64,000 nt of DNA from Skeletonema tropicum (Eukaryota > Bacillariophyta > Thalassiosirophyceae > Thalassiosirales > Thalassiosiraceae), in contig CM074130.1 of the NCBI GenBank assembly GCA_037178625.1, positions 868,001-932,000 of the forward strand, read 5' to 3'. Positions within the stretch are counted from its first letter, which is position 1. The number at the start of each line of letters is the position of its first letter. The notes under the pieces are model-generated. The model was not told the origin of the DNA. It saw only the letters and a program-made list of their open reading frames with translations, and ran no database searches. Shown in pieces: positions 37,353 through 43,742 of this stretch. A program made the position numbers and the translations under genes.

Positions 37353-37814
37353 TCAATGAGATTGAGGAACTGGTACTGTTGCAAATTCTCCGTAAAGGTC
37401 CCTCGCAGTCTTTCCCCCCTCACAACACGTCTTCTTGAACCCGAAGTCACAGCAAACTTCTGGGCGATCACAGTCGTAATTACTTTCACATGTGTCTTCA
37501 AATACGCTACCAAAGAAACCTTTCAGTATACCAGATACTCCTTTACTGTTAGCTGCTGCCGCTGCTACACTGGCTTCTTTGTCACGTATTGTTTTTGCTT
37601 CCACCTTGGCATCTTGAAATTTCTTCCGATTTGTCTCTTCCATTTCAAGAATCTCTGCCTGCAACACGACGAATTGCTCTGGTGTTAGAGGATCGAGGCC
37701 GTACTTTCTCCTAACCTTATTTTTCTCTTCCAATTCATTCCAATAGTCATCGGCGTCGCATACAACGTCATCATTCTTGTGTTCTTCGACTGCTGTGCCA
37801 AATGAATCAGCAGC
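37353..37814 (-). pseudogene. 3' part of split plastid-targeted Cys-rich protein gene
   Basis: This part carries residues from SFGTAVEEHK to the C-terminus of the protein whose start is at 43742. The part unique to this side encodes a Ala-rich linker, KGVSGILKGFFGSVF, and a Cys-rich motif CESNYDCDRPEVCCDFGFKK followed by CC, reminiscent of small disulphide-bonded domains seen in chloroplast proteins of diatoms and related algae. There is no start codon of its own in the correct context. Bases 37563-37814 are duplicated at 43221-43472. Removing the inserted element and one repeat copy restores a continuous 243-residue frame. Confidence 0.8.
37563..37814. repeat. 252-bp host-gene direct repeat, left copy
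   Basis: It matches 43221-43472 in length and, by eye, base for base. The two copies lie immediately outside the inverted termini of the 37815-43220 element, like a giant target-site duplication. Confidence 0.9.
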
Positions 37815-38048
37815 GCTATGGGTGGTGACGCTAGTAGCGCGCCTAAGTAAAACCTAAAAATGGCTATTTTTTGGAAATAGATAGAGTAAGCGAATAGTAA
37901 CTCTACGATGAAACCAAGACTACCAATGGAAAGCTTATCTCCTCTAGTTTATGATTCATGTGTTGTTCGTGTGATTTGGTCGACTATGAGACGAATTGGA
38001 ATCGTCCAAAGTTTTGCACTTGTCTGACTTTGGAACGGCTCTCTCACA

Positions 38049-38147
38049 CTCTGGGGGGTCGAATGCTGTCGTACAGGTATGCATTCGACTCGTGAGGTGT
38101 TCAGGAATCCAGTGCATATCTGTACGACAGCATTCGACCCCTCAGAG
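38049..38147. repeat. subterminal stem-loop, 28-base arms
   Basis: Arms 38049-38076 and 38120-38147 are inverted copies with one mismatch; the core reads GGTCGAATGCTGTCGTACAG. The loop is 43 bases. It is 230 bases from the left terminus and could be a protein-binding or RNA structure of the element. Confidence 0.85.
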
Positions 38148-38281
38148 CAATAGAATCGACTACTCCCTGAGACATCATTTCAACCCATTTTCAAATTTTT
38201 TTCGTTCGTTTTACTAGCGATTTGTTAGCAATTTGCAGAGAAAATCCGACCTCCGACAGTCAGGCTGTTCATTCTCGGCAA

Positions 38282-38575
38282 CTAAGCGGTCGATTCAACC
38301 CGTTCCAATTGCAGAGCTCTTCTAGAAGACCTATTGGAGCGATCCAATCGCTGTGTTAGGTTGGAATAGCTCTTTTTGCTGCGTAATACTGCGTCTAAAC
38401 TGGGCAATGCCATAGAGAGATCGCTTTTCACACGTCGGCGATGCATTTGGTTCATATTTGCTAACAATAACAAGATATTCGTCCATAAAAGCATGCCTTG
38501 TCTATTCATTAGGTAGATACTAGATGATTGAGTAGAATAATTGTAGCAAAGCGTGCCAGATTCCGATGGTGTCAT
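38282..38575 (-). CDS. possible small divergent ORF of the element
   Basis: 97 codons from ATG at 38575. Its start overlaps the ATG region of the plus-strand ORF by 10 bases, an unusual head-to-head overlap. It contains a hydrophobic stretch (MLLWTNILLLLANM) and a basic tail. It could be a chance ORF. Confidence 0.3.
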   Translation of the reverse strand: MTPSESGTLCYNYSTQSSSIYLMNRQGMLLWTNILLLLANMNQMHRRRVKSDLSMALPSLDAVLRSKKSYSNLTQRLDRSNRSSRRALQLERVESTA

Positions 38576-39666
38576 TCCTACAAGTGGCGAAAGCCGTCAT
38601 CACTCTCGAGACATCCACCTACTGGATACATGAATCAGCTTTCGCCAAGCTTTTAGGAGTGACCGACGCTGACTTGGAAGGATGGGTTAAGTGCGTGAGA
38701 GAAGGGGGCTCCGGTGCTAAATCCAAGAATACATTCCAGCCTAACCCTGCTCCCTACAATGTCAAAATCGATCTTCCCGATCTGTCTACAGATAACGTTC
38801 TAAATCTTCACTACCAAGAAAACAGGTGCAACACCATTCCAAAAGTAGACGGAGAAGTCTTGTCTTTGTGCAGCTTTGCCAGATACTACTTCATTGGTAC
38901 GTCGGCGAGTTGTCGGTCAACATCGTTAAAGACTGAGATTGACATTGCACGATACGTTGTAGGTGATCACAAGGAGCTTTTGTGTAATGAAGACTACAAG
39001 CCGATCGGTGAGAGACGCAGAAAGCTATGGCGACAATGGATGAACGGGGATAGAGAAGGATACGAATACACCAAGGAGGACTTACCAGTAATTGCATACT
39101 TCTTTGCTGACTACTTTGGAGTCAAACAAGAACGTCTACGCACATCTGACTTAGAGAGAGTCAAATGGCATATACGTGAAATTCTTGTGGCATTGAATTT
39201 ACTGGAAACCACAGATAATCCTCTCCCACGTCGAAGCACTAGAATAAGTAATGATAGCCAAGATATGGATATTGATGGCATCCCGAGCCAAAGAGTTCTA
39301 CACCAACGCGATGGAGACACCCGACGATCAAATTCTCCCGACGAAGTATCAGAGAGCGATGACAGTCTTGATGCCATTTTAGGCGATGAAGACGATGACG
39401 ATGAAGATATGACGCATCAAGCGGCCAAAAGGGCACTAAAGAAGTTGTTGGCTAGATGTGGTGGTGATAGAATAGCAGGTTATAGACGCGTCGGCATTCT
39501 CGAGGCTGCTTTTAAATGTGCCCATGGCGACGGGACAATCGTCGACCTCAACACGACGCTCTTTGCTCTTGCTTGTCCAGACCTCATGTCTCCAAATGAA
39601 TTTGATCGCATTGCTGCACTCCAGATTCCTATCCTCAAATTTTCGATATGTTTTGGTCCAAAATGA
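38566..39666 (+). CDS. element ORF1, unknown function
   Basis: 366 residues from ATG at 38566. The N-terminal half looks globular (ESAFAKLLGVTDADLEGWVK; RYYFIGTSASCRSTSLKTEI; RRRKLWRQWMNGDREGYEYT). About residues 220-290 are acidic and Ser-rich, and the final segment is again globular (ARCGGDRIAGYRRVGILEAA). No transposase, nuclease or zinc-finger pattern is evident. Its last 19 bases overlap ORF2, which is in the -1 frame relative to it, so translation by frameshift or a separate start is possible. Confidence 0.6.
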   Translation: MVSFLQVAKAVITLETSTYWIHESAFAKLLGVTDADLEGWVKCVREGGSGAKSKNTFQPNPAPYNVKIDLPDLSTDNVLNLHYQENRCNTIPKVDGEVLSLCSFARYYFIGTSASCRSTSLKTEIDIARYVVGDHKELLCNEDYKPIGERRRKLWRQWMNGDREGYEYTKEDLPVIAYFFADYFGVKQERLRTSDLERVKWHIREILVALNLLETTDNPLPRRSTRISNDSQDMDIDGIPSQRVLHQRDGDTRRSNSPDEVSESDDSLDAILGDEDDDDEDMTHQAAKRALKKLLARCGGDRIAGYRRVGILEAAFKCAHGDGTIVDLNTTLFALACPDLMSPNEFDRIAALQIPILKFSICFGPK

Positions 39667-40763
39667 GCTTATATCCGCATTCAACAAGGATTGTAGAGCA
39701 AACTCATGGTATGGAGCGCCATGCTTACAACTCACAAGCTTCAAATGACATGCGCGATGCACGCACAAACTATATGGCCCGTCAAGAGTATGAGAACAGG
39801 AGGGATCGAAGAAGTCTTGTACTGGCAAGAGCCGCGGAGGCGGAGAAGGCATCATCGACCACTGCTACTGCTACCACTGCCACGAAGCGATCAAAGAAGC
39901 AAAATGTCAAACATAATGACAGAAAGCCCACCCAAAAGATGATGGGTGACCAATTGCTTGAAGCATCGCAGAGATATACTGCTGTAAGTATTAAAGCACG
40001 CACCACGGTATCCTTCCAAGAAGCGTATAGCATTAGAAGCATCGTGAAGCGTGGAACAAACGTCGGTAAGAAGCAACTTGACGAAAAGAAAGTAGCCCAT
40101 GCAGAAGCAGTTGCAGCAAAGAAGAGACAGTCTACCACTTACAGTCAGACCTCATTGGAAGATCAAGAAGAAGCAGCTACAACACTAGTGACAGCCAATG
40201 ATTTGGCATGGAAGTCAAAAGATGCAATTGAGCGTGCAAAACGACTCGATAAAGTCCTGAAGAAGAGTTATTGGAAAGATGTCCCATCGAATTGTTTCTT
40301 TGAAGAACTCGAAAAAGTCCTTCCGCGCTTTTACAACCGTGCAGTGAGTGGTATGACCAAGACTTTTGTGCTGCGGACAGCAACTGAAACTTGCACTGAA
40401 GAGAATAATCTCGGTCAATTCATTAAACTTGTCCAAAATATTGCAGATGGAAAGACTCCAAACACCCTCAGCACCAAGCGTCGGGCAGACCAGTTGAAGA
40501 AGGCGAAAGCAACCAAGATGGATATTTTGGCTGAGTTCACTAAAGTGGCAGACTCTATTTACTTAAGTGTTGTTGAAGAGAAGGATTTTCAGAAGCATGC
40601 ACCTATGCGAGCAATAATTGAATCATTTGGCACTGAGATCGCTGGACATGCTAGATATCAATTGACAGATAAGAAGGATTTGACGACCACTTTTGTAACC
40701 AGTTACATCCCCCCAAGTGATGATGGCGATGGCGATGGCGATGACGATGGGATGATCTCTTGA
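39648..40763 (+). CDS. element ORF2, unknown function
   Basis: 371 residues from ATG at 39648; the frame is open for some codons upstream too (PDSYPQIFD), so the real product may be a continuation of ORF1. It is highly charged and mostly alpha-helical in look: an Arg/Ala region, a Lys-rich segment KRSKKQNVKHNDRKPTQKMM, helices with KSKDAIERAKRLDKVLKKSY, and an Asp/Gly repeat tail (DGDGDGDDDG). Composition fits a nucleic-acid-binding or structural protein. No domain is recognised. Confidence 0.6.
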   Translation: MFWSKMSLYPHSTRIVEQTHGMERHAYNSQASNDMRDARTNYMARQEYENRRDRRSLVLARAAEAEKASSTTATATTATKRSKKQNVKHNDRKPTQKMMGDQLLEASQRYTAVSIKARTTVSFQEAYSIRSIVKRGTNVGKKQLDEKKVAHAEAVAAKKRQSTTYSQTSLEDQEEAATTLVTANDLAWKSKDAIERAKRLDKVLKKSYWKDVPSNCFFEELEKVLPRFYNRAVSGMTKTFVLRTATETCTEENNLGQFIKLVQNIADGKTPNTLSTKRRADQLKKAKATKMDILAEFTKVADSIYLSVVEEKDFQKHAPMRAIIESFGTEIAGHARYQLTDKKDLTTTFVTSYIPPSDDGDGDGDDDGMIS

Positions 40764-41296
40764 AAGAGAATGTAAATATTGTAAATATTCTGTATAAAAG
40801 TCACCTGCACCCCACAATAGTTGTTTGTTCATCGGTACGGCGTAGAGGTGATGGTGTGTGAGTTCATATACCAAAGAAAATGGACTGTACTGTTGATTAG
40901 CAAATTGGACCACGATGCAAAACCGACCCACCCAATCTTTATATAACTCCAGCGGATGTATTCACTGCATTAGAACGTTCGTAATGTTGTGATATTGACC
41001 ATGATGGGTAAGATAGCCGAAAGATGGCAATTTTCCATGCCCACATTTCAAATTGCATTACGACCACGTAGACCTATTTCGAGCCAAATAATGACTGTAG
41101 ACATTGAATATATAGACAAGAAGCTGTACATGGAGCCATCGTTCGGCCTCCGACGACGTCCGTAACATGGTGCATGGTGCCGTCGAACATGGTGGTTTTG
41201 GTGATGTCTTCGTTCTGTGTGATTTTGAGGCCGGATAGCGAGGCGCGCCAATTTTTTTGAGTGATTTTGGCCCGATCTCCCGTTCGACATAGGTTT

Positions 41297-42875
41297 GTAG
41301 CGAGCACCTTATATTTTTTTCTCCACCAGCACCTTTTATTATGCGTTATATCTTGTTTTTTTGCTGTCTAGTACCACCTATATTTCAGCACCTTATATTA
41401 TACAGCCCATTTTTAGTATTTCTTCTTTGTCCTTATTTTTTTGTGTTACTAGAGAATGTCAGCACCTTATATTCGGAATTCCACGTGTAGTCTTCTGTTA
41501 GGTTTCTAAATCGTTTATTGCACTGGTACTTATCAGAACCAATGTTCTTTTTTTAATATTGTAGGAGTATTACGCTTGTACTCGGAGTATTTGCAACTAT
41601 TTTTGCAACCGTGTAATCACATACATGGTCACATAGTAGTCACACATGTCAGATCACGTGAAAGATGCGATTTTTCTTTATGACAAAGACATAGACACAA
41701 TAACAAGACATGCCTACCATGACATGCGCTTCATTTGCCCTTGGGTCGTCGTTCAGCCACCGCCATTGGCCATGAAATGGTATTGCATATTGTGAGCTTC
41801 CGTCAGAGCCGTCGATCGTCGTCATTAGCGTTATAGAATCACTGAGAGCATCATTGAAAAAGAGGCACGCGTGTGCTTGCAGCATTATGTTTGTTTCTCA
41901 CAGCAAATCAATCCAAACCGGAGGGAAGATCACATCTACGACAACAGCAGCGGCAGTTTTCAACAATTGAGTGGACGTGAGATGTTGTTTGAAATGTACT
42001 GGGTCCGAGAACTTAATTGGTTCCTTTCTGAACCAATACGATTCTAATTTTCTTACTACACTGGTTAAAATATGAACCAGAAAGATGACACTGTACTGAA
42101 CAATAATATTACACTGGTACTGGTCTGAACCAGTATCATACGAAACTACGAAGATACCTCAATGATGGAATCCGTCCAATCTGAAGTACGATCTGCCATA
42201 GTAATTTTTAATACATTTGCTATTATTTCATTCTATGGATCATCGAGATTAATTTTCTGCACATCTAATAATGATGGAGTCATTGTCCTAATTCACTTCC
42301 TACCGGAACTAACTGGTTCCATTCTGAATCAATTAGATTCTAATTCACTTACTACAGGAGTCATTGTCCTAATTCACTTCCTACCGGAACTAACTGGTTC
42401 CATTCTGAATCAATTAGATTCTAATTCACTTACTACACTGGTTAAAATATGAACCAAAACGGTAACACTACACTGAACAATAATATTGCACTGGTACTAG
42501 TCTGAACCAGTATTGTACTCTTGCAATGATGAATTCATTCTAATCTTAAGTACGACCTAAGATGGTAAATTTTCTTTCTATGAATGATGGAGTCATCGTC
42601 CGGACAGCTATGGATCCTAACCATTACAGCTATGAATCATACCCATTAACTTTCGTCCCAAGAACAGTTCCGGAAACTCAGAATATAAGGTGCTGACATT
42701 CTCTAGTTGAAAAAGAAACCAATGATATAAGGGCCTGACACGTGGAAATCTGAATATAATGTGCTGACATTCTCTAGTACGGGAAAAAAATGATGCCTGA
42801 TTCGACATAAAGAAAAGGGCTAAATAAGGCTAAATAATATAAGGTGCTGGAATATAAGGTGCTGGCTACAAAACG
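41297..42875. repeat. nested inverted-repeat region with TATATT/GCACC boxes
   Basis: Several copies of CAGCACCTTATATT at about 41305-41475 face inverted copies (AATATAAGGTGCTG) at about 42680-42860, some with the shared extension TAGAGAATGTCAGCACC. This looks like a smaller foldback unit inside the 5.4 kb element. Confidence 0.65.
42276..42437. repeat. 81-base tandem duplication
   Basis: Two exact-looking units, 42276-42356 and 42357-42437, each starting GGAGTCATTGTCC and containing GGAACTAACTGGTTCC. Confidence 0.9.
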
Positions 42876-43220
42876 GTCCGTTCGACCCATCCGACCCCCT
42901 ACGACCACCAACATCGCCGATGAAGACGAATCCAACGATAGGAATGGCAAGACATGACCCCAATGGACCCATGTTGGCGAGATCAGAAGGTGATTCGATG
43001 ATTTGATCACTACAGAGACCATTATCAGCACAAGAGGGGCATTTAACTAGGGAGTCACTAACAAACTGAATATCACGATAACTACATAAGTATTGGAGCA
43101 AAAACGGCTCCCTTTGCAGTTCATTGGTCCTAGGGGTATACTGAAGCTGTCTGAGAAGTATCAAGGCGATTTTCCAAAATTCGTTTGTTAGTAGATTTAA
43201 CTAGCGTCACCACCCATAGC

Positions 43221-43472
43221 TGCTACACTGGCTTCTTTGTCACGTATTGTTTTTGCTTCCACCTTGGCATCTTGAAATTTCTTCCGATTTGTCTCTTCCA
43301 TTTCAAGAATCTCTGCCTGCAACACGACGAATTGCTCTGGTGTTAGAGGATCGAGGCCGTACTTTCTCCTAACCTTATTTTTCTCTTCCAATTCATTCCA
43401 ATAGTCATCGGCGTCGCATACAACGTCATCATTCTTGTGTTCTTCGACTGCTGTGCCAAATGAATCAGCAGC
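43221..43472. repeat. 252-bp host-gene direct repeat, right copy
   Basis: Second copy of 37563-37814, placed immediately outside the right terminus of the 5.4 kb element. Confidence 0.9.
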
Positions 43473-43742
43473 TGCCTCATAGTCAAAGACGCACACTTGT
43501 CCGTGCTCGCCGGCTACCGGATAAAATCCTTCTCCACAGGGATTAGCATCCGTATTATCATCCACCTTCACCACTACAGCATCAGTAATCTCATCTCCAC
43601 CTTCACATATTCGCGTTGTTGATACTGACTGGGGTGTTATAGATTTCGTAAGTGATGATGAAGATGAAGAGAATGCGCTGGCCGACAGACATGATATCGC
43701 GGCGGCCACCAGCAGCATTATTATCCTAGGAGAGGACACCAT
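43221..43742 (-). pseudogene. 5' part of split plastid-targeted Cys-rich protein gene
   Basis: ATG at 43742 opens MVSSPRIIMLLVAAAISCLS, a signal peptide, followed at once by the ASAF motif with Phe in the +1 position. This is the bipartite signal used for import into diatom complex plastids. The mature part continues with NPCGEGFYPVAGEHGQVCVF and KVRRKYGLDPLTPEQFVVLQ. After EASVAA the frame enters the terminus of the 37815-43220 element and ends at 43197 after MGGDAS. The intact protein would be 243 residues, with the Cys-rich tail now at 37353-37562. A truncated 181-residue protein could still be made. Confidence 0.85.

Follow-up and report, generated by a model that had tools for sequence, protein, structure and literature searches.

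Alternative transposition, in which the ends of two element copies take part, is described as duplicating or deleting the flanking DNA and leaving element ends at the joint (PMC3744419, PMC2775673). Two-site joining of this kind has so far been known mainly from fly and maize genetics, and none of the 10 papers listed in a literature search deals with such a reaction in diatoms, as judged from titles and the beginnings of abstracts. In the fly, hybrid element insertion reportedly gives exactly the product A-X-element-X-B, as described in papers of 1996. Among other described elements, IS3EU / GingerRoot have TA..TA termini, given as TAYGG..CCRTA for fungal IS3EU (PMC12730594, PMC10045372), and hAT5 is listed with a 5-bp target duplication (PMC12730594). 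For IS481EU, target duplications of about 4, 15 or 25 bp and ends of the form TGT..ACA or TNT..AYA are given (PMC10045372).

The locus analyzed here was found in the window, which is the whole stretch of 64,000 nucleotides of diatom DNA under study; the assembly searched comprises 78.4 Mb in 125 contigs. A transposon of 5.4 kb (37817 to 43218, plus strand) is bordered directly on each side by one copy of a host segment, called X in the following, as would be expected for the product of a hybrid element insertion. The raw direct repeat has a length of 254 nt (37561 to 37814 and 43219 to 43472, both unstranded), is 100% identical and is repeated at a distance of 5658 nucleotides; the host segment itself measures 252 bp. 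The inverted ends (37815 to 37835 and 43200 to 43220) are paired in 21 of 21 positions, which bears out the earlier note in its description of perfect 21-base inverted termini set directly against two identical 252-base host copies. The outer GC of these ends varies with the target at two other loci (L015 and L016) in the flank comparison. Therefore the element proper was taken to be TATGGG...CCCATA with ends of 19 bp. The left terminal inverted repeat (37817 to 37835, plus strand) reads TATGGGTGGTGACGCTAGT and has the outer flank GAATCAGCA-GCGC, while the right one (43200 to 43218, minus strand) has the outer flank GCTGC-TACACTGG.

The interrupted host gene (37353 to 43742, minus strand) has its start codon at 43742 and encodes a protein of 243 aa once the element and one X copy are removed. 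Joining position 37814 to 43473 gives back this open reading frame, and the claim that the insertion broke a gene was therefore confirmed. For the host protein 54 database relatives were identified, the named ones including those from Mediolabrus comicus (86%), Thalassiosira exigua (74%) and Skeletonema marinoi (56%). Mediolabrus belongs to the diatom order Thalassiosirales, so that the host is very probably a diatom from this order or close to it. The X segment is single in all 8 relatives that were aligned, which are the best-ranked of the 54. In the whole-assembly search of 78.4 Mb, X was found in two places in all, both in the window. The X copies are identical to each other while the window element differs by 1-2% from its closest copy (L009), which suggests that the 252-bp duplication is recent.

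Next to this locus, the family as a whole was characterized. The 19-bp end occurs 88 times in the assembly with at most one mismatch, compared to 0 occurrences of the reversed control, so the end matches are not due to chance. Some 44 copies in 78 Mb are implied by these 88 recognisable ends. The same four segments as in the window element were found in 15 of 20 loci compared, and 13 of those 15 are about 2.1 kb in length. Dispersed copies with conserved inverted ends, as expected for a cut-and-paste TIR transposon, are thus present. A near-palindrome in the left subterminal part of the window element (38049 to 38147; 47-nt arms, 87% complementary, 5-nt loop) has a self-inverted match at 20 of 20 loci compared.

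Identical 5-mers were found to flank the element at 12 of the 19 sites that could be read at both ends. The flanking sequence is GCTGC on both sides at L010, L011/L041, L013, L014, L017, L020, L021 and L026; the other identical flanks are GCAGC (L018), ACAGC (L015), GCTGT (L016) and ACTGC (L044). The 5-mers are not identical at 7 sites (the window, L009, L022, L024, L025, L028 and L047). L026 and L027 were taken once in this count, being the same insertion, L011 and L041 were counted as one copy by an inferred pairing of ends that lie 14.9 kb apart on C5, and loci with a single end in hand (L012, L019, L023, L048 and L049) were left out. The copy at L011 (G000 C5:241830-251330) is split by a nested copia-type retrotransposon and has the GCTGC flank at both ends. 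L026 and L027 (G000 C14 near 744015 and 720467) lie 23.5 kb from each other and share both element and flanks. These flanks are identical over 120 left bases and at least 6,413 right bases, and by this measure the pair is a segmental duplication in which the element was copied along.

GCWGC is present on both sides at 11 sites, with the middle base agreeing in 9 of 11, where chance would give about half. As GCWGC is the preferred target, part of the identity at such sites would arise by chance anyway. The informative sites are L015, L016 and L044, which are identical across 5 bases and not across 6; identical 6-mer flanks were found at 0 of 17 loci. A direct comparison with empty sites is provided by L014, which is located in a satellite array of 184-191-bp units (G000 C14:793849-803349). 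The 35 empty satellite units beside it read GGT or AGT, followed by GCTGC (22 units) or ACTGC (13 units) and by TGG. In the filled unit GCTGC stands on either side of the element, and the difference is a 5-bp GCTGC target duplication. The family was thus shown to integrate normally at GCWGC-like sites, duplicating 5 bp. A long target duplication as a rule of the family is ruled out by the matching 5-mers at 12 of 19 sites together with the empty units at L014.

For the identification of the coding capacity, the two large open reading frames of the window element were analyzed; both are present at 38566-39666 and 39648-40763, as the earlier note had it. ORF1 (plus strand) extends from 38566 to 39622 up to the probable deletion junction and runs on to 39666, whereas ORF2 (39606 to 40763, plus strand) is open from 39606 with its first ATG at 39648. 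ORF1 aligns at 30% identity with residues 1-341 of the L048 frame of 883 aa; for ORF2 the match is to residues 439-758 of P0001, the L047 frame of 798 aa, at 35% identity. The frames of L048 and L047 overlap, from which we infer that the putative transposase measures about 1,370 aa. By these alignments, ORF1 covers the N-terminal part and ORF2 the C-terminal part of one putative transposase with the middle missing. The window copy does not hold a complete transposase. The internal deletion would have its junction at 39622 to 39630 (unstranded). The sequence of L009, which is 98-99% identical to the window element in the aligned pieces, differs from it at the junction of ORF1 and ORF2 and on to element position 2109.

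The candidate catalytic residues, picked by eye in the large family ORF, are found in SDDT, TDNA and the glutamate of EQxH, with a spacing of about 414 residues between the candidate second Asp and the Glu. The window copy keeps the candidate Glu (RIVEQTHGMER) and is without the other two of the three; the part holding the candidate Asp residues (SDDT, TDNA) is absent at the junction. Searches of Pfam, NCBIfam and PDB sequences gave no significant match for the putative transposase, so that the view of the ORF products as lacking a known family held up. The profile search against PDB sequences gave one weak match (E 0.54). Among the best ~8,000 candidates scored each time, the N-part frame had 1 database relative and the C-part frame had 3; these are 3 proteins in all, too few for a better structure model. 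The predicted structure of P0003, made with 2 relatives, has a mean pLDDT of 34.2, which is too low for a fold search. A relative of the transposase was not found in the viral contigs scanned, and no full-length frame was among the best-scored candidates in the assembly, the longest being 894, 844, 798, 674 and 638 aa.

A further 1.59 kb of the window element (41289 to 42877, unstranded) is a nested insertion foreign to it, which is flanked by a 9-bp duplication CCGTTCGAC at 41280-41288 and 42878-42886. This insertion is missing in L009 and L012. It has TTTGTAGC-type inverted ends, holds an 81-bp tandem repeat and a 128-nt repeat pair, and is presumably Mutator-like, judging by the length of the 9-bp duplication. 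The window copy is hence best described as a probable non-autonomous deletion derivative that carries a nested insertion.

Next, the borders of the window duplication were compared with the target sites of the family. Both borders are GCTGC, exactly 252 bp apart. The first X copy opens with GCTGC (37561-37565), which is a target-type site. The right element end adjoins GCTGC at 43219-43223, the same sequence that starts X at 37561, and a second GCTGC is located at 43471-43475. At the left junction GCGC was found instead of GCTGC, which is one base short. GCWGC starts at 208 of the 64,000 window positions (about 0.33%), so it is unlikely that the second border is GCWGC by chance. The 101 GCTGC in the 64-kb window include one pair at a distance of 252, where the mean is 0.17 pairs per distance for distances of 100-599; 14 GCWGC sites lie within the 3,342-base host piece. 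The two ends of the window element appear to be joined to two target-type sites that were not neighbours.

Other copies with odd flanks were examined by a self-comparison at 18 sites that took in up to 1.5 kb of flank, and less at L044 and L047. No repeat was found at 14 sites, the repeats being at the window, L014, L020 and L015. At L015 (G000 C15:842399-851899) the element lies between inverted-repeat arms of about 230 bp and 84% identity. A long direct repeat beside the element was present only at L014 (satellite) and L020 (paralog cluster) among the 17 non-window sites. The element at L020 (G000 C13:2493990-2503490) is located between two copies of a gene segment of about 510-540 bp that are 82% identical. 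This gene segment is unbroken over both borders in one nearby inverted paralog, and a second paralog spans the first border only. In this respect L020 looks like another two-site event. The paralogs of the cluster are 77-80% alike; since the L020 copies are about as divergent as these, L020 may instead have arisen by loss of DNA between tandem paralogs, with no duplication involved. If so, its GCTGC/GCTGC flanks would be no true target duplication, and the count of 12 of 19 would become 11 of 19.

L025 (GCAGC/GCTGC) and L028 (GCTGC/GCAGC) are the only non-identical sites with GCWGC on both sides. Their nearest relatives are 99.4% and 98.8% identical (16 copies compared), and decay is thus an unlikely cause of the mismatch. 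The weaker mismatch sites are L009, which adjoins another element, L022 (left CTAGC), L047 (left AT-rich) and L024 (right end damaged). Together, the mismatch sites weakly support two-site joining. At L009 (G000 C8:3001019-3001040) two elements lie almost end to end with 20 bases between them, consisting of GCTGC, a 13-base partial left end GCTATGGGTGGGC and GC.

We assign a probability of about 0.5 to the reading that the window holds a non-autonomous TIR transposon copy whose duplication was caused by alternative transposition of the hybrid-element kind. The 252-bp duplication would then be a rearrangement and not the usual target duplication of the family. The right end would have joined one GCTGC of the gene, and the left end another that lies 252 bp further along. 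Two chromatids or homologs may have taken part, one supplying the left end of the element and the other the right end of its copy, and the joining of these ends at such staggered positions would give gene part A, X, element, X and gene part B as the product, plus a reciprocal deletion. The transposase would have been supplied from elsewhere, because the window copy is without the candidate catalytic core. For the left GCGC, an added imprecise join or a later deletion would be needed. This reading requires the fewest insertions; the rival histories would lead to an identical sequence.

The 252-bp in-frame tandem duplication may also have come first, by slippage or end joining at GCTGC microhomology, with a normal insertion at the joint GCTGC later. 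With GCTGC at both sites, a duplication of this kind would create a GCTGC target at its joint; 252 bp corresponds to 84 codons, which keeps the duplicated allele in frame, and ordinary steps suffice. However, the insertion would have to strike the joint exactly, among 14 GCWGC in the 3,342-base host piece, and one base of GCTGC is missing from the left flank. A prior tandem duplication was already an option in the earlier note. It stands as a live rival, but the 8 aligned relatives of the 54 found all have the segment singly, and we regard this order of events as possible although unlikely.

If each GCTGC had received its own insertion, the two being on different alleles, an unequal crossover inside the element would then have left exactly one element between two X copies. 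Ectopic recombination with exchanged target duplications is described for Galileo (PMC2775673), and the non-matching 5-mers at 7 of 19 sites would fit such exchanges. This history nevertheless demands two hits within 252 bp by a family of some 44 copies in 78 Mb, which makes it rather doubtful.

The same sequence would also result from a single event with strands nicked 252 bp apart and filled in to give a 252-bp target duplication. Discrete target duplications of about 15 and 25 bp are described within IS481EU, even within one family (PMC10045372). The new integration mechanism which the earlier note considered conceivable is very unlikely given the flanks at the other copies of the terminus, where ordinary short duplications of 5 bp were found (12 of 19 sites); this is the result that the earlier note had named as one that would refute it. 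The comparison of L014 with its 35 empty units likewise gives 5 bp, and a long direct repeat is seen only at L014 and L020 among the 17 other sites. A collapsed diploid assembly can produce false flanking duplications, but a merger of two haplotypes with differently placed insertions is the least probable history of all, since the joints lie exactly at the element ends and GCTGC sites, so that two insertions would still be needed, and the contigs with listed element copies are 2.1-4.8 Mb long.

The hybrid-element reading of the window thus demands no new integration chemistry. It would provide a base-level example from a diatom of a transposon with its two ends on two target sites and a gene-disrupting duplication as the result. 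A more speculative and unlikely extension is that the family belongs to an unnamed diatom DDE superfamily (5-bp GCWGC targets, TATGGG ends and a very large transposase) in which the ends are often uncoupled at separate GCWGC sites, with local duplications and deletions as a regular by-product. If the transposase were truly from a new superfamily, it would represent a class of mobile DNA that is missed by current domain libraries.

The protein is called a putative transposase on the basis of candidate motifs, and a superfamily placement is not made. Compared by description, the ends TATGGG...CCCATA fit the TA..TA termini and the TAYGG..CCRTA of IS3EU. The usual target duplication of IS3EU is 6 bp in contrast to 5 bp here (identical 6-mers at 0 of 17 loci), no integrase-type domain was found by Pfam, and the candidate second Asp and the Glu are about 414 residues apart here. 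The 5-bp target duplication is shared with hAT5, and the family protein may resemble hAT in having its motifs in the order Asp, Asp, RW, Glu. Many hAT elements have CAGGG-type ends, unlike those of the window family. In addition, no hAT family was among the Pfam matches of the 7 proteins scanned (E up to 10). IS481EU is a precedent for unusual target-duplication lengths in one family, whereas the window family has 5 bp and TATGGG ends. The family is assigned to neither P nor hAT, and the event proposed here was inferred from one allele and the other copies in one assembly. The likeness to Drosophila P hybrid insertion and maize Ac/Ds alternative transposition lies in the element at the joint of a duplicated flank and in what appears to be a different target site for each end.
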